NCBI GenBank assembly: GCA_030429735.1
Contig: JAUIET010000001.1
Span: 434,001-498,000 of the forward strand
Length of the DNA stretch: 64,000 bases
DNA from: Gammaproteobacteria bacterium
GTDB lineage: Bacteria > Pseudomonadota > Gammaproteobacteria > Pseudomonadales > JAUIET01
Direction of reading: 5' to 3'
The translations under genes and the position numbers were made by a program. Of this stretch, positions 33,899 to 60,058 are shown one piece after another. Within the stretch, counting starts at the first letter, position 1, and each line of letters opens with the position of its first letter. The notes beneath the pieces are model-generated. The model saw nothing but the letters and a program-made list of their open reading frames with translations, was not told the DNA's origin and made no database searches.

Positions 33899-36331
33899 TT
33901 ATGCCAGCGAAGCTGCCCTGTTATCCGTATTAGTGTCTGCCAATAACTCAAATTCCGGACCAAATGCCTGAAACCGGATCAACAATACAGGTAACAAGAA
34001 TAAATCCGCCAACAGCGCCATGCAAATAGCGCTTATTAAAAGGCTGCCAAAACTCGCCATCGTTGCCATCTCGGACGCAAAGTGTGTAGAAAAAGAAGCT
34101 ACCAGAATGAGTGTGGTTATCACCAGCGCATGCCCCACGCCCCCGATAGCCTGTGTTAACGCCTGCTGGTAATTCCCGCAACGAAAGAACTCCTGTCGCA
34201 TCCTGCTGACCAAATGCACGGTATCATCAACGGCGATGCCGATCGCAATTGTGGCGATCATCATCCTGATATAGTCAAGGTTTATACCTGCATAGCCCAT
34301 ATAACCCATTGTTAGCAGAATCGGTGCGAGATTTGGAATCATCGCCAGAGCACCCACTTTCAATGAGCGAAAGATGATACACATCAGCACAAAGATCATG
34401 CTAAACACCAGCAAATAGCCTTTGGTAAAACTCGTGAATATATAGTCAGCAAGCTTTACCCAGAGCAACCCTACCCCGCTCGGTTCTACCGATAAGCCGG
34501 AGCCTTCGACGTTAAACTCACTATCCACATACTCATTCAGGGTATCGAACAATTGACGGACTTTATGAGAACCCACCATGGCCACTCGTAAATCAACAAC
34601 AGCGCGCGAGAAATCACTGGTCATGTATTTTTCAAGCTGATCACCACCCGACAGCTCATACATTAATAAATACTGCGCAATCAGATCCCGATCATCCGGC
34701 AAACGATAATACTCCGGATCATCACCATGGAAGGTTTGATTCAGGTCTTTAAGAACATCAACAATCGACAGAGACTTGTGCACTAAGGGTTGCTGGTCCG
34801 CAAATTGCTGAAAGCGCTCTAGCGCTGCCAGATTCTCCGGTGTCTTCATACCATCTTCATCAGACTCGAACACAAACACCAGACTGAGCATGCCGCCCAT
34901 GGTCTCTTCTGCGTATTCGGTATCCTGGCGAATCTGCATATGCGGCTTGAAATCAGTAACGAAATTGAAGTCAATGCGCAGCTTGCTAAGGCCGAACAGT
35001 GCTGTGAGTATCAACAGCGCCGACAGCAACACAATCAAGCCCGGTCGCCGCAAGTCAACGCTCACCACCCAATCAAGAATCCGACTCAGCCATTGTTGCT
35101 GAAGCGTCCATGGACGCGGTTTATCACTACCAAACGACAGCAGACTCAACAGCAATGTAATGGTTAGAAAAAACGTACACAGCACACCAAAAGCGCCATA
35201 CAAAGACAAATTGGAAATACCTTTCAAATCGGAAACCGCCATAGCCATAAAACCAACTGCGGTTGACAACGCAGCTAGCAGGCATGGGTTGCCAACCAAC
35301 TCCATGGTTTCCCTGAGTGCATCGCGGCGACAAAGACCTGCCGACATGGACAGCTGAAACTCAGATAATAAATGCACCGCTTGCGCAACGCCAATGGCGA
35401 TCAGCAGGTTAGGCATCATGGCAAACAGCATATCGATGTCCCAACCGACAATCGCCATAAAGGCAACCGTCATCATCATTGCTACTAACACGACAAACAA
35501 GGGGCCAAGCAGCGACAAGATACCACCGCGCAGCAATACCAGCCCCAAAATCATGATGATGATGACACTAATGCCCATTTGCGATACTGGTTCTGAAAAG
35601 GCTATTTCGTTGTACACCGTATTGAGTTCAACATCGCCAATATTGTAAAAACGGATGCCCTGGTATTCCGGTCGGCTGAGCAGATTCTCAATGGCGTGGC
35701 CGCTGACCTGCGGATACAAATTCTGCAACCCGTCACCACCGTCCGGGTCATAGCGCACCATATCAGGAGGGTCTGTGGCAGCGCGCGTCATCTCAATAAC
35801 TATCGCTGCATGCTTGCCGTCGGGAGAGACTATATTGTTCAGATAAATATCTTTGCTGAGAATCAGGTCCCGTAGCGCGAGCATACCCTCCTGATTTTCC
35901 GGAAAATCATGCAGTATTTCATGCACCTGAATATCGTCGCCGGCAGATTGCATAAACTCAGCGGAACTTAGACTGAGCACATCACTGACAAACGGTACTT
36001 CTGTTTCCAGCGCCCGGCTGAGTTGCGCAATCGTTCGCATCAGTTCAATGTCGAAAACACCGTGATCCAAGTCTGGCGCGGAATAGAGCAGGAATGCGAT
36101 CTCGTCCGAGCCAAAATCTTCGCGATAGTCGTAATAGTGCTGATAGGTCGGATCATCCGGGTCAAAGAATGCATCCAGCGATGAATCGCTGCCAACACCA
36201 CTGGCCACCCAGGCTGATGCAAGCGCAAGCAGTAAGGAGCTCACCAACACAAGCCAGCGATGATCGTGTACCCAAACGGCAAAATCGCCAAACGCATGCG
36301 ACGAACGTGCGAGATAATCTCTCGGCGCCAT
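33899..36331 (-). CDS. RND/MMPL-family predicted exporter
   Basis: Patched-like RND transporter of 810 residues with two repeats, each one helix followed by a large periplasmic domain and a five-helix bundle. The first bundle starts near GISVIIIMILGLVLLRGG and includes GIGVAQAVHLLSEF; the second contains MIATIAIGIAVDDTVHLVSRMRQEF, the GxxxDD signature of proton-coupled RND proteins. No membrane-fusion or TolC partner is adjacent. Related proteins move lipids or hydrophobic compounds; the substrate is unknown, but the GDPD gene 7 bases downstream hints at phospholipid-related cargo (inference). Confidence 0.85.
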   Translation of the reverse strand: MAPRDYLARSSHAFGDFAVWVHDHRWLVLVSSLLLALASAWVASGVGSDSSLDAFFDPDDPTYQHYYDYREDFGSDEIAFLLYSAPDLDHGVFDIELMRTIAQLSRALETEVPFVSDVLSLSSAEFMQSAGDDIQVHEILHDFPENQEGMLALRDLILSKDIYLNNIVSPDGKHAAIVIEMTRAATDPPDMVRYDPDGGDGLQNLYPQVSGHAIENLLSRPEYQGIRFYNIGDVELNTVYNEIAFSEPVSQMGISVIIIMILGLVLLRGGILSLLGPLFVVLVAMMMTVAFMAIVGWDIDMLFAMMPNLLIAIGVAQAVHLLSEFQLSMSAGLCRRDALRETMELVGNPCLLAALSTAVGFMAMAVSDLKGISNLSLYGAFGVLCTFFLTITLLLSLLSFGSDKPRPWTLQQQWLSRILDWVVSVDLRRPGLIVLLSALLILTALFGLSKLRIDFNFVTDFKPHMQIRQDTEYAEETMGGMLSLVFVFESDEDGMKTPENLAALERFQQFADQQPLVHKSLSIVDVLKDLNQTFHGDDPEYYRLPDDRDLIAQYLLMYELSGGDQLEKYMTSDFSRAVVDLRVAMVGSHKVRQLFDTLNEYVDSEFNVEGSGLSVEPSGVGLLWVKLADYIFTSFTKGYLLVFSMIFVLMCIIFRSLKVGALAMIPNLAPILLTMGYMGYAGINLDYIRMMIATIAIGIAVDDTVHLVSRMRQEFFRCGNYQQALTQAIGGVGHALVITTLILVASFSTHFASEMATMASFGSLLISAICMALLADLFLLPVLLIRFQAFGPEFELLADTNTDNRAASLA

Positions 36332-53537: not shown

Positions 53538-53702
53538 CAGAGACTTTCCGGACACTGTAAACTTGCGTAAAGCGTGCGGATTACTTCGCTGGATTCATTG
53601 TTGAGCAGGCTTTATCATCGTGACTCATTCGGGCCATGGAACTTACACGATGGGTAAGGTTCTAATAATGACCGGGTTCTCGCTCGACTCACGCAAGTTA
53701 AA

Positions 53703-54335
53703 ATGATGCTCAAGCCAGGCCGCCTCCTTTTTTTACTGTTTGTTGTTTTTATCTCGCCTTTTTTGAGTACGACCTTGAGTGCGAGCGAGACAGCGCCGAG
53801 TGAACCACAAACAAACACCGCCAAAGCACGCACAGCGATTGAGCAATTCCATGCTGTGCTGATCGACGTTATGAAAATTGATGCCGATTTTGATCAACGT
53901 TATGCGCTATTGCAACCAGCCGTTGACGCGACATTCGATATGAACGCGATTGCCCGAATGAGCCTGGGCACACCCTGGCGCGCACTGGAAACCGCCTCAA
54001 AGCAGGAATTCATGCAGCTGATGCGTGAGCTGATCACTGCCACTTATGCCGATCGTTTTGATAGTTACAATGAACAACGCTTTACCATTACCAACGTGAC
54101 AGAGCCTCGCCCTGGTCGGTGGCTGGTTCGAACCCAGCTGATTCGCAAAAGCGGAAAGCCTGTATCACTTGACTACTATTTCAAAGGCCAGCGCGTATTC
54201 AATGTTGTGGCCGACGGTGTATCAGACCTGGCAGTGCGCCGAGCAGACTACAATGCCGTAGTGGCATCTGATGGATTTCAAGGACTGTTAGACAGCGTCC
54301 GCGCCAATATCGCCGGACTGCGGAATGATTCCTGA
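53703..54335 (+). CDS. mlaC: MlaC/Ttg2D/HpnM-family periplasmic lipid carrier
   Basis: Periplasmic phospholipid-binding protein of 210 residues with a signal peptide (about 1-27). The MlaC core is recognisable in ATFDMNAIARMSLGTPWRALETASKQEFMQLMRELITATYADRFDSY and VSLDYYFKGQRVFNVVADGVSDLAVRRADYNAVV. First gene of a four-gene unit, with no MlaB, D, E or F gene. The 165 bases before it show no clear promoter. Confidence 0.88.
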   Translation: MMLKPGRLLFLLFVVFISPFLSTTLSASETAPSEPQTNTAKARTAIEQFHAVLIDVMKIDADFDQRYALLQPAVDATFDMNAIARMSLGTPWRALETASKQEFMQLMRELITATYADRFDSYNEQRFTITNVTEPRPGRWLVRTQLIRKSGKPVSLDYYFKGQRVFNVVADGVSDLAVRRADYNAVVASDGFQGLLDSVRANIAGLRNDS

Positions 54336-55107
54336 TGCATTCAAGAAAACCTTCGTTCTTAGTGCGCTCGTTGCCTGTTTGAGCTCATGCAGCGCTTTAC
54401 AGGGCCCTGAACTGGGCGTGTATGACCAGCACGAATCGATCAATCGAGGCAGCTTTCGCATTATGGAAGGCTTTGATACGGTGGTGGGCAAGCCGGTAGC
54501 AAGAGCCTATCAGGCAGTTCTTCCAGACTGGGCTGAGCGGGGCATCAGTCATTTTTTTCTAAACCTTAGAACTGTAGACAGCGCTCTGAATGCCTACTTG
54601 CAGGGGAACTTCCGTGCAGGGTCAAAAAATCTCGGTCGGGTATTGATTAACTCTAGTCTTGGTGTTGCCGGCCTGTTCGATGTTGCATCAGAAATGGGCA
54701 TTGAGTACCAACAGGAAGACTTTGGGCAAACACTGGCGCACTGGGGCTATACGCGTTCACGCTATGTTTATTTTCCAGTGATTGGCCCAACCACGGCTCG
54801 CGATCTGCCAGGCGATCTTTTTCATCTGATCATGTCTCCGCGCCTGCTGCTTGGCAACGCGTACGATGTGTGGGTGGGTTCAGTGGATACCTTATCGCGA
54901 CGATCGGATGCACTGCTGCTGACAGATGCGCGCGATGATGCAGCGCTGGACAAGTACATTTTTACCCGCGAAGCGTTCAATCAGAAACGCCGGTTTGACA
55001 TACTTAACGGCGAAGTGCCGGTCGATGATTCGATGTTTGATGCTCTGGATGACTGGGACGATCTTGAACAAGCCCCTAATGTGCCTGCACGCGACCCATC
55101 TGAATGA
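54325..55107 (+). CDS. mlaA: MlaA/VacJ-family outer-membrane lipoprotein
   Basis: Outer-membrane lipoprotein that extracts or inserts phospholipids. The 260 residues have a lipobox LSSC, and the VacJ core NRGSFRIMEGFDTVVGKPVARAYQAVLPDWAERGISHFFLNLRTV ... LINSSLGVAGLFDVASEMGIEYQQEDFGQTLAHWG (the GVAG pore signature). The start overlaps mlaC by 11 bases and the stop overlaps the RND gene by 4 bases. Confidence 0.93.
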   Translation: MIPDAFKKTFVLSALVACLSSCSALQGPELGVYDQHESINRGSFRIMEGFDTVVGKPVARAYQAVLPDWAERGISHFFLNLRTVDSALNAYLQGNFRAGSKNLGRVLINSSLGVAGLFDVASEMGIEYQQEDFGQTLAHWGYTRSRYVYFPVIGPTTARDLPGDLFHLIMSPRLLLGNAYDVWVGSVDTLSRRSDALLLTDARDDAALDKYIFTREAFNQKRRFDILNGEVPVDDSMFDALDDWDDLEQAPNVPARDPSE

Positions 55108-57689
55108 ATGACAGTAAGCCCAAGCAGCTGTTAATCAACTGGGTAGCCCTGTGCTGGCAGCACGGTCAGCTGGTTTTGTTTACCTTACTTTTAACCACGG
55201 TTTTGGCGGGCGCCTACGCCGCAACCGAGTTTCGCATGTACTCCAAACTGGGTGAACTGATTCGCCAGGAAGGCGATTGGAAAACGCAGTGGGACGACTA
55301 CAAGGCCCAGTTTCCGGCCTTAATAGAAACCGTAATAGTGGTGATCTCTGCTGATTCACCCGCGCAGGTAGACTATGCGGCAAGCCAGCTCAATGACGCT
55401 TTCATCAGCAAGCCACAGAAGTTCTCCGATGTTTTTTCACCCACAGCAGAACCCTTCATGCGCGACCGGGCTTTGTTGTACCTCCCGATTGAAGACCTTG
55501 AACAGGTTAGCGCACGATTGATTGAAGCCCAGCCCATGCTCACCCGATTCGCCGAAGACCCAAGTATTCGCGGTGTACTGGAACTTATTATCGATGGCGC
55601 GAACAACGAGGCCCCGCAAGGCTTTCAACGCATACTGTCTTCGATAGCAAACGCCTCACAACAGGCCTTGAACTCGCCTGCAAGTTACCTGTGGGGCGAT
55701 GAATTTCTGACCAACAGCGATGCTGGCCCACACTATGCGATGGTGTTTTTGAAAGGCCCACAGAGTTTCAATGAACAACTGCCCAATTCTGCGCTGTTGC
55801 AGAATGTGCGCGATGAGATTGCGGCACTTAACTTGCCAGACAGCACCAGCGTACGGCTAACCGGCGAAGTTGCCTTGTCGCATGAAGAAATTTCAGCAGC
55901 TATGCAAGGTGTCAAAATTGCCGGCGTAGTCAGCGCCATCGCATTGATGATTATTCTGGGGTTTGGTGTTCGGTCTATTCATATAGTACTGGCGTGTGCG
56001 TCGATGCTGCTCATAGGGGTGGTTTGGACAGCGGCGCTAGCGCTGCTGACTGTCGGCAGCTTCAACACAATTTCATTGATCTTTCTGGTTATGTTCCTGG
56101 GGCTTGGCGTCGACTTCGCTTTGCATTTCTGCCTGCGCTTTAGTGAAGCACTGCATGGTCACGAAAAGCCCGCTGTGGCGATTAAACACTCCACCCGCAG
56201 CGTTGGTGGCGCGATCAGTTTATGCACCTTTACAACTGCAGTAGGTTTTATGGGTTTCTTGCCAACAGATTATCTTGGGCTAGCTGAGCTGGGCATTATT
56301 TCCGCTGCCGGCATGGTCGTGGCTGGCGTACTGACCTTTAGCTTTTTGCCGGCTTTTTTCAGCGTTGCTGGAACACCGTCGCCTGATCGCTCGGTGAACT
56401 TGCCGCTGTCAGAACGTTTCCTCGCCGTACTCAGGCCGCGTAAGCGCGGTGTATTCCTTACCTTGTCTGCCTTAACCGTTGCTGCGCTTATTCTCGACAG
56501 TCGCATGTATTTCGATTACAGCGTACTGGCCATGCGAGACAACAATGCCGAGTCCATGCAGGCGATGTCGGAACTGGCCGACGCAGGGGAGATAACAGAT
56601 TACAGCATGGCATTACTAACAAGCGAACTTGCCCTAGACCCGGAACTGGAGAGCACGATGGAAGCATTGCCCGAGGTGGACAGCGTTCGTTCGGCAAACG
56701 CAATAGTGCCTGACTACAGCGAGGACCGGGAGTTCATTCTTGAGGAATTGCGCGATATTTTATGGAGTGCGATCGAACCACCCGAACAAAAAGCCGCGCC
56801 CACGCCCGATGAGTTGAAGTCACTCATCAAAGAGGCAATTGTGGCGCTGCGCAACGGTAAGCTATCAGATAGGCACAATGAGGATGCCTTGCGACTTGCC
56901 GACACACTGGAAAACGCGCTGGCCTCCGCTGACGTTCTGCATTGGCAGCAAGCCTTGCTCGGCGACATGCCCGAACAGTTACGGTGGCTGCAGCAAGCCC
57001 TGACCGTACAGCCACCGGCGTATGAGCAATTACCAGACAGCGTACGATTGCGCTTGCAAGGCTTGGACGGACGCTTTCAACACACCATTTTGCCGGCCAA
57101 CGATATAGTTGATGTTCGCTCGCTTGGAGCCTACGTTGACAGTGTGCGGGAAGTCGCACCTGGCGCTACTGGCAGACCGGTGGTTGAGCAGGGCGTAGGC
57201 AGAGTGGTTGTAGAGTCTTTTAAGCAAGCTTTGCTGTTTGCATTTGTCGCCGTCACCACCATACTTCTGCTGGCTCTTCGCAGCATTAAGTACACTTTGA
57301 TGGTATTGTTGCCGTTGGTGCTCACAGCGGTATTCACGGTTGCCATTGCCGTGCTGATCGATATGCCTTTTAACATGGCCAATATACTGGTACTGCCCTT
57401 GATTTTTGGTCTGGGCGTAGACAATGGAATACATGTGGTGCATCGCTTCAGAAATGAAGGCAATGTCGACCAGCTTGTGCATTCCAGCACTCCAAGAGCG
57501 GTATTGTTAAGCACGCTCACCACCATCGGTACCTTTGCCTCGCTGTCATTGTCGCCGCATGTTGGTACCGCGTCGATCGGGCTGTTGTTAAGTATTGCTG
57601 TAGGGTTTATTTTGTTATTCAGTGTTTTTCTGCTGCCGCTTCTATTGGAAAGCGTATCGTTGAATAATGTGGGCGCTAGCGAGCCATGA
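55104..57689 (+). CDS. RND/MMPL lipid transporter (HpnN-like)
   Basis: An 861-residue RND protein. Each half has one helix, a large periplasmic domain and five helices. GLGVDFALHFCLRFSEALHG (first half) and GLGVDNGIHVVHRFRNEG (second half) are the RND helix-4 signatures with Asp for proton coupling. Resembles HpnN hopanoid transporters and the MmpL group. Co-translation with mlaA (ATGA overlap) suggests that it energises lipid transfer between inner membrane, carrier and outer-membrane lipoprotein. The cargo is inferred. Confidence 0.87.
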   Translation: MNDSKPKQLLINWVALCWQHGQLVLFTLLLTTVLAGAYAATEFRMYSKLGELIRQEGDWKTQWDDYKAQFPALIETVIVVISADSPAQVDYAASQLNDAFISKPQKFSDVFSPTAEPFMRDRALLYLPIEDLEQVSARLIEAQPMLTRFAEDPSIRGVLELIIDGANNEAPQGFQRILSSIANASQQALNSPASYLWGDEFLTNSDAGPHYAMVFLKGPQSFNEQLPNSALLQNVRDEIAALNLPDSTSVRLTGEVALSHEEISAAMQGVKIAGVVSAIALMIILGFGVRSIHIVLACASMLLIGVVWTAALALLTVGSFNTISLIFLVMFLGLGVDFALHFCLRFSEALHGHEKPAVAIKHSTRSVGGAISLCTFTTAVGFMGFLPTDYLGLAELGIISAAGMVVAGVLTFSFLPAFFSVAGTPSPDRSVNLPLSERFLAVLRPRKRGVFLTLSALTVAALILDSRMYFDYSVLAMRDNNAESMQAMSELADAGEITDYSMALLTSELALDPELESTMEALPEVDSVRSANAIVPDYSEDREFILEELRDILWSAIEPPEQKAAPTPDELKSLIKEAIVALRNGKLSDRHNEDALRLADTLENALASADVLHWQQALLGDMPEQLRWLQQALTVQPPAYEQLPDSVRLRLQGLDGRFQHTILPANDIVDVRSLGAYVDSVREVAPGATGRPVVEQGVGRVVVESFKQALLFAFVAVTTILLLALRSIKYTLMVLLPLVLTAVFTVAIAVLIDMPFNMANILVLPLIFGLGVDNGIHVVHRFRNEGNVDQLVHSSTPRAVLLSTLTTIGTFASLSLSPHVGTASIGLLLSIAVGFILLFSVFLLPLLLESVSLNNVGASEP

Positions 57690-59575
57690 ATGCAGTGCGC
57701 GGCCCAATACGCTGGCTACTCTGTTTTTTGTTCGCCGGCCTGCTGATGCGTGTCTGGATGTGGTGGTTCGAAAGACCCAGCGGCGTGTTTGCCGACAATG
57801 CTGAGCTTGTTCTCGCAATTGTCATTGGCCTGCTCAATGACAGCATGTTGTTTGTTAGCTTACTTGCACTGCTAATACTCACAGCATTGACGAAACCCCT
57901 GATAGCACGGCTGTTCCTGGCAATCAGTATTTTACTGTGGATTCTGTTTGTTATCGTTGACGTTTTTTTCTGGATCGATTTTGACGGACGCGCCGACCGG
58001 CTGGTGTTTCACTATCTCGCCTTTCCTGTTGAAGTGCTGGTTTTTCTGGAAGATCAATTTGCGCTGAGCCTGCTTATTGTGCCGCTGTTGCTGCTGGTAT
58101 ATCTGATTTACAAACAAATGCTACCGGGTTTGAATGCGCTGCAATCATCAATTACCGGCAGCACGCGTGCCTGGGCCCTGGCAGCAGTGTGCATACTGGG
58201 CGGGCTTATTCAGTGGCAACTGGAACCCATAATGCCCTGGCCCTCCAGGCACCTAAACGATTTGGGTAGCAATGGCATGCAGAAGGTTTTTCATGCAAGC
58301 CTTATTGATGAAACCCAATGGGAAGGCGTGTACGTCAGCCCCTCGCCAGCAGACCGTCACCAGTCTAGCGCCGGTCTGATTGCAAGTAACACTGCGCACA
58401 AACCAATAGCACCGGCAAAACACGTACTGTTGATTATTGAGGAATCCCTGGCCGGCCCCAACTGGTGGGACCCACAGCGGCGCGCGAAATACATGCCAAA
58501 TTTTGATCGCTGGCGTAAGAAGGGGGTGTATTTCAGCTATATGATGGCCACGGGAACACGTACCACACGCGGCGTTGAAGCTATGTTGCACGGCGTTCCG
58601 CCGCTGCCCGGTATTGCACTTAATCAACGCGACGGCTACGAAAAACTGAGCTCATTACCGCGCGAGCTGCAAAATGCCGGGTTTGAAACCAGTTTTGTAT
58701 ACGGCGGTTGGCCAGGGTTTTCAAACTTCAAACCGTATTGGTCTGCTATCGGCTTTGATACGGTGTATACCCGCGATGATTTCAAAGACAAGTGGTTCGA
58801 AACTTCCTGGGGTGTTGCGGATGAAATTCTGTTTGACCGCGTGCTGCAGGAAATGGACGAGAAAACCCGTCAACATGAACGCGTGTTTGTATCAACATTG
58901 ACGGTAAGCAATCACCGGCCTTACGACTTTCCTGAAGGTAGAATTGATTATCCGGCCGACCAGCGCAAACAGGAATACGCCGTGGCCTACGCGGACTGGG
59001 CGCTGGGTCAATTTCTCGATAAGGCCGAACAGAAACCCTGGTTTAAAGACACTTTAGTCATCGTCACCCCCGATCACGGTCCCAACCCGTCCGGCGATAC
59101 GCTGATCCCCATTGATGGTTATCGCCTGCCGGCGATTATGCTTGTGCCGGGCCAGCCCCCTGCCGAGCGACAAGGTGTCGGCTCACTGATGGATATACCG
59201 ATGACGGTGGTGAGCACCCTGGGATTAAAAAATACCGAGGGGTTTATCGGCAGAAATCTGCTTGAGAAAAACGTCAGCGGTGTGGCTCCGGTGGAGCATG
59301 ATTACCTGCTGGGTCTTTACAATGGCCACTCCTTGACAGTGTTGAGACGCAATGAAAGTATCGCAGCCTGGCAGCGCGGTGCACAGGGCAAGCTGCTGCC
59401 GGCACAACCGCAGCAGCAGATGAGTGACGCTGCCTTGTCGCTGTTTCGCTACGCGCACGACCGCTACGTGCAACCCACTACGGGTACAGCACAAGAAGTA
59501 CAACTGGGCGCTGCCCTGCCGGTGTATTCCCTGCAGTATTTGCTCAAACGCACTAACGCACGCGTTCAACATTAA
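57686..59575 (+). CDS. LTA-synthase-like membrane sulfatase-fold enzyme
   Basis: A 629-residue protein with about five N-terminal membrane helices (residues 10-165) and a periplasmic alkaline-phosphatase/sulfatase-fold domain. Metal and nucleophile region: LLIIEESLAGPNWW and MATGTRTTRGVEAML (candidate Thr nucleophile); later TPDHGPNPSGD. Like LtaS and phosphoglycerol transferases, it should move a phosphoglycerol or similar head-group. Four-base overlap with the RND gene. Confidence 0.85.
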   Translation: MNAVRGPIRWLLCFLFAGLLMRVWMWWFERPSGVFADNAELVLAIVIGLLNDSMLFVSLLALLILTALTKPLIARLFLAISILLWILFVIVDVFFWIDFDGRADRLVFHYLAFPVEVLVFLEDQFALSLLIVPLLLLVYLIYKQMLPGLNALQSSITGSTRAWALAAVCILGGLIQWQLEPIMPWPSRHLNDLGSNGMQKVFHASLIDETQWEGVYVSPSPADRHQSSAGLIASNTAHKPIAPAKHVLLIIEESLAGPNWWDPQRRAKYMPNFDRWRKKGVYFSYMMATGTRTTRGVEAMLHGVPPLPGIALNQRDGYEKLSSLPRELQNAGFETSFVYGGWPGFSNFKPYWSAIGFDTVYTRDDFKDKWFETSWGVADEILFDRVLQEMDEKTRQHERVFVSTLTVSNHRPYDFPEGRIDYPADQRKQEYAVAYADWALGQFLDKAEQKPWFKDTLVIVTPDHGPNPSGDTLIPIDGYRLPAIMLVPGQPPAERQGVGSLMDIPMTVVSTLGLKNTEGFIGRNLLEKNVSGVAPVEHDYLLGLYNGHSLTVLRRNESIAAWQRGAQGKLLPAQPQQQMSDAALSLFRYAHDRYVQPTTGTAQEVQLGAALPVYSLQYLLKRTNARVQH

Positions 59576-59599: not shown

Positions 59600-60058
59600 G
59601 TGAAGATCTGGATTGACGGCGACGCCTGTCCGGTAGTGATCAAGGAAATTTTATTCCGGGCAGCTGACAAGCGCGAAGTACACACCATTCTGGTGGCCAA
59701 TCACCTGGTACGCACACCACCGTCGAAGTTCATTCGCAGCATGCAGGTAGCCTCAGGTTTTGACGCCGCCGACAATGAGATTGTGCGTTTACTCGAAGCC
59801 GGAGATCTGGTGATCACCAGCGATATTCCGCTGGCCGCTGAAGTGATGGAAAAAGGCGGCTTGGCCCTAAGCCCCCGCGGAAGCCTGCACACAGAAGAGA
59901 ACATTCGCCAGCGCCTGAACATGCGTGACTTCAATGAAACCTTGCGCGCCAGCGGTATCAACAGCGGCGGGCCACCACCCATCAACCAGACCAACAAGCA
60001 GGATTTTGCCAACCATCTTGACCGGATAATTACCCGCGCGCAGCGCACTGGCACCTAA
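59600..60058 (+). CDS. yaiI: YaiI/YqxD family (DUF188) protein
   Basis: PIN-like DUF188 protein of 152 residues, typical motifs [15 protein letters not shown] near the start, [13 protein letters not shown] and [24 protein letters not shown]. Function unknown, likely nuclease-like. GTG start preceded by a perfect AGGAGG 6 bases upstream. Confidence 0.93.

Follow-up and report, generated by a model that had tools for sequence, protein, structure and literature searches.

The means by which lipids cross the periplasm, and the direction they take, form a central question of outer-membrane biology, and several described systems bear on it. The characterised transporter HpnN, of the resistance-nodulation-division (RND) type, moves hopanoids outward (PMC6394551). 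TatT-containing tripartite ATP-independent periplasmic (TRAP) systems have been proposed to import hydrophobic molecules (PMC5812351), and BstC, a member of the TatT family whose gene accompanies that of the HpnN-like RND transporter BstA, has been reported to bind sterols (PMC10942540). The subject of the present analysis is a four-gene unit encoding an HpnM-type carrier, an MlaA-type lipoprotein, an HpnN-type RND transporter and an enzyme of the LtaS superfamily (genes 1 to 4). It lies in a 64,000-nucleotide stretch of a gammaproteobacterial genome (GCA_030429735.1, contig JAUIET010000001.1, positions 434,001 to 498,000), referred to here as the window.

A conserved four-gene order

The HpnM–MlaA–HpnN–LtaS-like order was found in 17 distinct loci, the window included, with proteins 39–53% identical to those of the window. 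Chance neighbours can be rejected because of the counts obtained at control loci. In a tblastn survey of the fetched stretches, a gene-4-like gene was present near one of 117 HpnN loci outside the unit (L132, where it directly follows HpnN and is 22% identical), and HpnM, MlaA or HpnN near none of 29 LtaS-like genes outside the gene 4 clade. The four-gene arrangement is therefore real and conserved beyond chance. Some of the 117 loci represent one contig fetched twice (e.g., L071 and L182). The tblastn counts were preferred because ORF (open reading frame) picking had missed genes, no HpnN being labelled in L116, L118, L142, L147 or L239; the earlier ORF-based counts were 1 of 111 for a gene-4-like gene and 18 of 111 for HpnM with MlaA. 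HpnM, MlaA and HpnN share a stretch in 20 of the 117 control loci; thus, the triad has precedent, and the LtaS-like gene is the distinctive part of the unit, as the original prediction had proposed from the letters of the window.

Loci of the unit type number 21, namely the window, L276 (genome G993), L170/L302, L171/L303, L173/L316, L172, L175, L177, L184, L305–L315 and L317, where L302, L303 and L316 were judged from their equal lengths (17879, 47923 and 95631) to be the contigs of L170, L171 and L173 again and counted once. Twenty of these are rows of the unit's HpnN clade; L184, whose HpnN is cut and stands outside the tree, was included because of 46% identity and common flanks. The contig end truncates L315, which hence falls outside the 17 full-order loci. 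In 18 of the 21 loci, window included, gene 4 is the gene immediately after HpnN, and the two overlap by 4 bases in 16 of these, with each start set at the candidate closest to the preceding stop, a choice that biases toward small gaps. The idea that the four genes form a conserved unit was thus upheld by 16 loci besides the window. The related expectation that gene 4 is conserved with the other three held in most loci and failed in three that lack it and in one where it stands alone, all of which are weighed below.

Within the order, strong matches to both HpnN (E < 1e-60) and gene 4 (E < 1e-50) were restricted to the window's genome among 56 genomes, itself included; G001, the other genome of the same genus examined, gave no gene 4 match and weak RND matches. 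HpnN matches at E ≤ 1e-30 occurred in 43 of 369 genomes of the class (window's included), and, the window itself aside, none of these 369 held an HpnN match above 35% identity along most of its length. Gene-4-like enzymes are common in the phylum (52 of 398 genomes at E ≤ 1e-30; best outside match, 35%). A scan of genome contigs with an HpnN alignment, for which the best 80 of at least 596 candidate stretches were used, yielded loci at 41–47% identity, and a gene 4 search of 390 genomes of the order identified G993 as one of five (window's included) with matches at E ≤ 1e-62. Among 194 relatives of G993, itself included, 17 carried gene 4 at E ≤ 1e-75, all of them in family f39; 15 have the full order, one is cut (G1166, L315) and one has gene 4 alone (G1113, L304). 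Ten of the 17 come from two genera (g614, six; g610, four), and the loci are therefore not independent events; counted per genus, the figure is 9 of 97. When gene 4 was used as a single-protein query against genome contigs, no match was obtained, and a plasmid search with it returned 22 records, all below 60% identity and none covering 80% of the gene. The GC content of the unit (0.525) is close to that of the window (0.518) and shows no sign of recent horizontal gain, so that this origin for the window's copy was set aside.

In FastTree phylogenies, each of the four genes forms one clade: HpnN with 20 rows (support 99), gene 4 with 19 rows (support 100; the 18 unit loci that have it, window included, and the lone gene of L304), HpnM with 19 rows (support 100), apart from the three other MlaC proteins of the genome, and MlaA with 19 rows (support 100), apart from the genome's other MlaA. 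These values are local supports only; an odd letter make-up was flagged in many rows, and long branches were flagged for LtaS-like rows from outside the clade. In the gene 4, HpnM and MlaA trees, the window clusters with L302 and/or L276; in the HpnN tree, it branches first within the unit clade, and L276 is its nearest row by path. The HpnN of the unit is placed alongside L174, L176 and a glycosyltransferase-linked group, outside a 93-row clade that contains 44 of the 45 rows labelled as hopanoid-type from their neighbours. The labels ('hop', 'GT', 'HpnA', 'oth') were assigned from short motifs that we took to be diagnostic. In the sister group, a glycosyltransferase-like gene accompanies the HpnN-like RND gene in L070, L071/L182, L072/L223, L178, L188, L203 and L224, directly upstream wherever neighbours were read; the calls are by motif, with a Pfam check in L070, and suggest that this group is another lipid-specific HpnN system. 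L132 in turn belongs to a class relative (G317), in which an LtaS-superfamily gene of 595 aa with an FWRRN motif, about 21% identical to gene 4, begins 22 bases after an HpnN of the large, mostly hopanoid-type clade (L132:1613-6032). It is an independent pairing of HpnN with the LtaS superfamily.

Table 1. Genes of the unit and their positions in the window.
Gene	Positions	Strand	Assignment and features
Gene 1	53703-54335	+	HpnM-type periplasmic carrier, MlaC fold, 210 aa, signal-peptide-like N-terminus
Gene 2	54325-55107	+	MlaA-type outer-membrane lipoprotein, 260 aa, lipobox-like LSSC (by eye)
Gene 3	55104-57689	+	HpnN-type RND transporter, 861 aa
Gene 4	57686-59575	+	LtaS-superfamily enzyme, 629 aa

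In the window, the unit spans 53703-59575 on the forward strand, and its successive ORFs overlap by 11, 4 and 4 bases, which bears out the predicted overlaps of 4–11 bases (Table 1). Gene 1 matches PF05494 (MlaC fold) with 119 bits; its top NCBIfam model is HpnM (TIGR03481; 162.6 bits, above the cut-off of 160.1), the canonical MlaC model reaches 25.6 bits against a cut-off of 195, and matches to solved MlaC chains are weak. Gene 2 matches PF04333 (MlaA) with 191 bits, the canonical MlaA model with 84 of 375, and the solved MlaA 5nuo with E 6e-20. The earlier naming of both products as Mla components thus stands at the level of the Pfam families and fails for gene 1 as a canonical MlaC, since that protein is HpnM-like. 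Gene 3 is an RND/MMPL protein whose top model is HpnN (TIGR03480; 706.1 bits, below the cut-off of 751.85); it scores 517 of 1100 with the model for 'hopanoid transporter HpnN' (NF052374) and matches the solved HpnN 6wu0 with E 4e-89. The copies of G993 and L170 score 734 and 503 bits, such that all three unit copies scored are under the curated cut-offs. In its two GxGVD motifs, the aspartates D337, present in all 20 unit proteins, and D773, present in 19 of them, are presumably proton-relay residues. Gene 4 belongs to PF00884, with the phosphoglycerol-transferase and LtaS models far under their cut-offs (59 of 574, 56 of 572 and 32.8 of 970). HpnM/HpnN, the best models of genes 1 and 3, are the nearest analogy, as had been suggested. 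Equally, the RND pump stands where MlaFEDB would be expected, none of the latter being found among the ORFs neighbouring the unit in the window.

A YaiI/YqxD gene (59600-60058) begins 24 bases past the unit; in G993 a copy 63% identical lies about 4 kb from the unit (L276:5109-5582). A second RND gene of 810 aa with a weak HpnN match is located about 17 kb from the unit on the reverse strand (33899-36331), and the window holds no MlaA or MlaC-fold matches besides the unit's own. A sigma-70-like site before gene 1 (53642-53669) was discarded as within chance, with four such sites in the region against 5.8 expected.

Mla and hopanoid genes in the host genomes

The original prediction named a full mlaFEDCB set elsewhere that accounts for MlaA function as a finding that would speak against it. 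At the level of the genome, such a set is present. The window's assembly, G000 (5.03 Mb, 97% complete), encodes four MlaC-fold and two MlaA proteins, the unit's included. A complete mlaF-E-D-C-B set lies on contig C2, followed after mlaB by a second, divergent MlaC (L036:8296-12084); it contains the genome's sole MlaE (PF02405). The other MlaA is on C4, and a lone MlaC is found near lptAB on C10, away from mlaFED (L035:6818-7549). Replacement of Mla is thereby ruled out, and the unit is an extra route beside it. Among nine unit genomes checked, MlaE was found in eight; it was not found in that of L175, and the genome of L184 gave a partial match only. G001, from the window's genus, has no MlaE match (PF02405), the only one of three rated genomes without, and keeps TatT-DctPQM.

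Given the HpnM and HpnN assignments, a displaced hopanoid exporter was also considered, in which the unit would still carry hopanoids or triterpenoids made or taken up by the cell. The window's HpnM narrowly passes its model and its HpnN nearly does, and the L170 genome has a weak match to the cyclase family (34.7 bits against a cut-off of 26.1, over 122 residues). However, no squalene-hopene/oxidosqualene cyclase (PF13243) was matched in G000, with two of 14 control genomes positive, nor in five of the seven further unit genomes (those of L171, L173, L175, L177 and L184); the match in the L172 genome is partial and below the cut-off (23.8 bits against 26.1). A strong cyclase match was thus absent from all eight unit genomes examined. 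Strong matches do occur in the genomes of L174 and L176, which hold a related HpnN with no gene 4 beside it and in which no TatT was found. As the unit's HpnN also falls outside the 93-row clade with its 44 of 45 hopanoid-labelled rows, we regard hopanoid export as very improbable. Judged by gene content, with no cyclase match in the window's genome and with both mlaFEDCB and a second mlaA present there, the unit is not a hopanoid exporter and does not stand in for Mla.

The LtaS-like enzyme and the upstream TatT–DctPQM transporter

Gene 4 combines long N-terminal helices, presumably in the membrane, with a domain of the alkaline-phosphatase fold (residues ~232-598). An AlphaFold model built from five sequences has a mean pLDDT of 67.7, and a fold search with residues ~232-598 returned 3lxq (Z 42.7), LtaP 4uop (37.1), LtaS (34.6–35.3) and YejM/PbgA (~29-30). 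Residues E253, T293, H410, D463 and H464 are kept in all 19 clade proteins. T293 is the presumed nucleophile, chosen over T294 because the latter varies (12 of 19), and E253, D463 and H464 are presumed metal ligands. Trp354 and Arg356 of LtaS are, by our assumption as to numbering and role, its contacts to glycerol phosphate; the gene 4 columns aligned to them hold S/T346 and F/L348 in 19 of 19 proteins. A phosphoglycerol head group therefore cannot be inferred, and the predicted transfer of a phosphoglycerol-like group was not sustained: the presumed catalytic residues are kept and the LtaS contacts are absent.

Since YejM/PbgA come after 3lxq and the LtaS-type enzymes in the fold search, gene 4 might instead be a lipid sensor or regulator of the transporter and no transferase at all. 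We consider this unlikely, as E253, T293, D463 and H464 are invariant in 19 of 19 proteins and gene 4 is closer in both sequence and fold to 3lxq, LtaP and LtaS.

In most relatives, a second transport system adjoins the unit. DctM, or the visible end of it, lies directly before HpnM in 16 of the 19 loci for which the upstream side can be seen, L315 and L184 being excluded because their contigs begin inside HpnN. The whole TatT, DctP, DctQ and DctM set is visible in 12 loci, with two TatT genes cut by the end of the stretch; only the DctM end is visible in L172, and TatT lies outside the fetched stretch in L310, L312 and L317. Pfam naming of these genes was done for one locus. A 4-base DctM/HpnM overlap is available in six of the eight loci with candidate starts (16 tried), and one more shows a 1-base overlap. 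An acyl-CoA dehydrogenase gene occurs within the stretch in 12 of the 16 loci with upstream TRAP genes (one copy was checked with Pfam). The window, G993 and L306 have no adjacent TRAP genes; in the window's genome and in G993, TatT-DctPQM is found at separate loci (L318, L319), that of the window at G000:C20. Since G001 carries a TRAP module (L320) with no unit, the two can exist apart. TatT was present in all nine unit genomes checked. The best solved match of the relatives' TatT, 8g52, was dropped as a candidate for BstC, because 7T1M and 7T1S are BstB and BstC in the paper.

In the 18 TatT-linked DctP proteins (L175, L177, L302, L303, L305, L307-L314 and L316-L320; 15 adjoining the unit and three at separate loci), Trp invariably occupies a column in which three solved DctP proteins carry Arg. 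We take this column to be that of SiaP Arg147, the carboxylate-binding position; if so, the TatT-linked TRAP systems are, on sequence grounds, unlikely to be ordinary carboxylate importers. The arginine that ties the carboxylate is found in 98% of DctP proteins (PMC4646407).

These neighbours give some weight to retrieval or scavenging, in which the MlaA-type lipoprotein would extract lipids, or hydrophobic molecules of foreign origin, from the outer membrane, HpnM would carry them inward, gene 4 would remove or change the head group, TatT-DctPQM would import the product, and the RND transporter would return or sort what is unwanted. In the Mla pathway, MlaA and MlaC act in retrieval. The TRAP genes upstream in 16 of 19 loci, with an acyl-CoA dehydrogenase gene in 12 of those 16, would also fit, as would the proposed role of TatT-TRAP systems as importers of hydrophobic molecules (PMC5812351). 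However, the RND pump would then work against the inward flow, the characterised HpnN moving hopanoids outward (PMC6394551), and in the window, G993 and L306 the four genes persist with no adjacent TRAP genes. Retrieval is the less likely account of the unit, yet a serious rival to outward transport.

Proposed function and comparison with known systems

The unit may well be a dedicated envelope lipid-trafficking route for a non-hopanoid lipid; we put the case for this at about even. On this proposal, the proton-driven RND pump (gene 3) would pick up a lipid or another hydrophobic molecule at the outer face of the inner membrane and pass it to the gene 1 carrier, which would cross the periplasm and deliver it to the MlaA-type lipoprotein (gene 2) for insertion into the outer membrane. 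On the periplasmic side of the inner membrane, gene 4 would transfer a phosphate-linked head group to or from the lipid, and TatT-DctPQM, adjacent in most relatives and at a separate locus here, might import a hydrophobic precursor or return lipid to the cell. What the sequences show is the gene families, their shared order and clustering, the retention of the presumed catalytic and proton-relay residues, the lack of a cyclase match in the window's genome and the presence of Mla beside the unit. The substrate, the outward direction, the proton drive, the head-group transfer and the cooperation with TatT-TRAP are each what we infer; outward transport is preferred because the characterised HpnN moves hopanoids in that direction (PMC6394551).

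Several observations weigh against this proposal. Gene 4 is missing from L172, L175 and L184, stands alone in the 15-kb stretch of L304 (G1113), and, in the matches of G1113 (L304), G1166 and G1168, contains stop codons. MlaA acts in retrieval in the Mla pathway, which would suggest the opposite direction. The HpnM cut-off of 160.1 bits is passed by the window's copy only among four unit HpnM proteins scored, the other three reaching 137–154. The fold of gene 4 is shared with the sensor YejM (Z 29.8), the presumed catalytic set being intact. To these are added the weak cyclase match in the L170 genome, the three loci lacking adjacent TRAP genes, and the TRAP module of G001, from the same genus, that has no unit.

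A wider and more speculative proposal, to which we attach rather little confidence, is an eight-gene, ATP-independent lipid-exchange machine. In such a machine, ion-gradient-driven import by TatT-DctPQM, with Trp replacing the carboxylate-binding Arg, and proton-driven export by HpnM-MlaA-HpnN would be coupled through a head-group swap by gene 4 between the two directions, beside Mla, for a lipid not yet known to be trafficked. The combination of genes was not found described in the titles and abstracts that searches of an open-licence library returned, subscription papers and preprints lying outside that scope. It links two sets of transporter families, TatT-TRAP and MlaA/HpnM/HpnN, that are treated separately in the parts of the literature covered. 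For RND-driven lipid trafficking outside hopanoids, the unit provides a case open to experiment, in a genome with an intact Mla pathway and no hopanoid cyclase match, and it might reveal what a separate clade of LtaS-like enzymes does in Gram-negative bacteria.

Among the described systems, AmeABCD of Castellaniella defragrans raises the further question of whether the unit could expel harmful hydrophobic compounds, the role proposed for that cassette. The partners of gene 3 are MlaA and MlaC-fold proteins, which handle membrane lipids in known systems, and it is not obvious why an efflux pump should need gene 4, which makes efflux improbable here. The likeness lies in the cassette: AmeD, too, is an HAE3-type RND protein and has partners in the periplasm and the outer membrane, and monoterpene tolerance falls when ameABCD is deleted (PMC6394551). 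Those partners, however, are an outer-membrane channel and two chaperone-like periplasmic proteins, and the accessible part of the report mentions no lipid-modifying enzyme (PMC6394551).

The Mla pathway shares with the unit a lipoprotein and a periplasmic carrier of the same Pfam families. The unit differs in that an RND transporter replaces the ABC transporter, its MlaC-fold and MlaA proteins form clades of their own, and the genome carries Mla as well. The hopanoid HpnM/HpnN system resembles it in joining an HpnM-like carrier to an HpnN-like RND protein, in some loci with MlaA; the unit is set apart by the absence of a cyclase match in the window's genome, a separate HpnN clade and a dedicated LtaS-like gene after HpnN.

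For the transporters that involve TatT, the Bst system of Methylococcus (BstA, an RND protein, with BstB and BstC) likewise pairs an HpnN-like RND protein with a TatT-family protein (PMC10942540). In contrast to it, gene 3 reaches 150 of 1400 with the BstA model, no sterol cyclase was found in the window's genome, and MlaA, HpnM and a complete DctPQM take the place of BstB. The TPAT system of Treponema has TatT, DctP, DctQ and DctM together, as is the case upstream of the unit in most relatives and at a separate locus in the window's genome; in the relatives, the set is joined to the HpnM-MlaA-HpnN-LtaS-like unit, a linkage not described for Treponema in the available portion of that report (PMC5812351).

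Finally, gene 4 shares its fold, presumed nucleophile and presumed metal ligands with LtaS/LtaP and VP1736 (3lxq). It differs from LtaS/LtaP in the columns of Trp354 and Arg356, which hold Ser/Thr and Phe/Leu, and in its place beside a lipid carrier system. The unit is thus a form of RND-linked lipid trafficking, which is known in kind, and the LtaS-like enzyme is its distinctive part.

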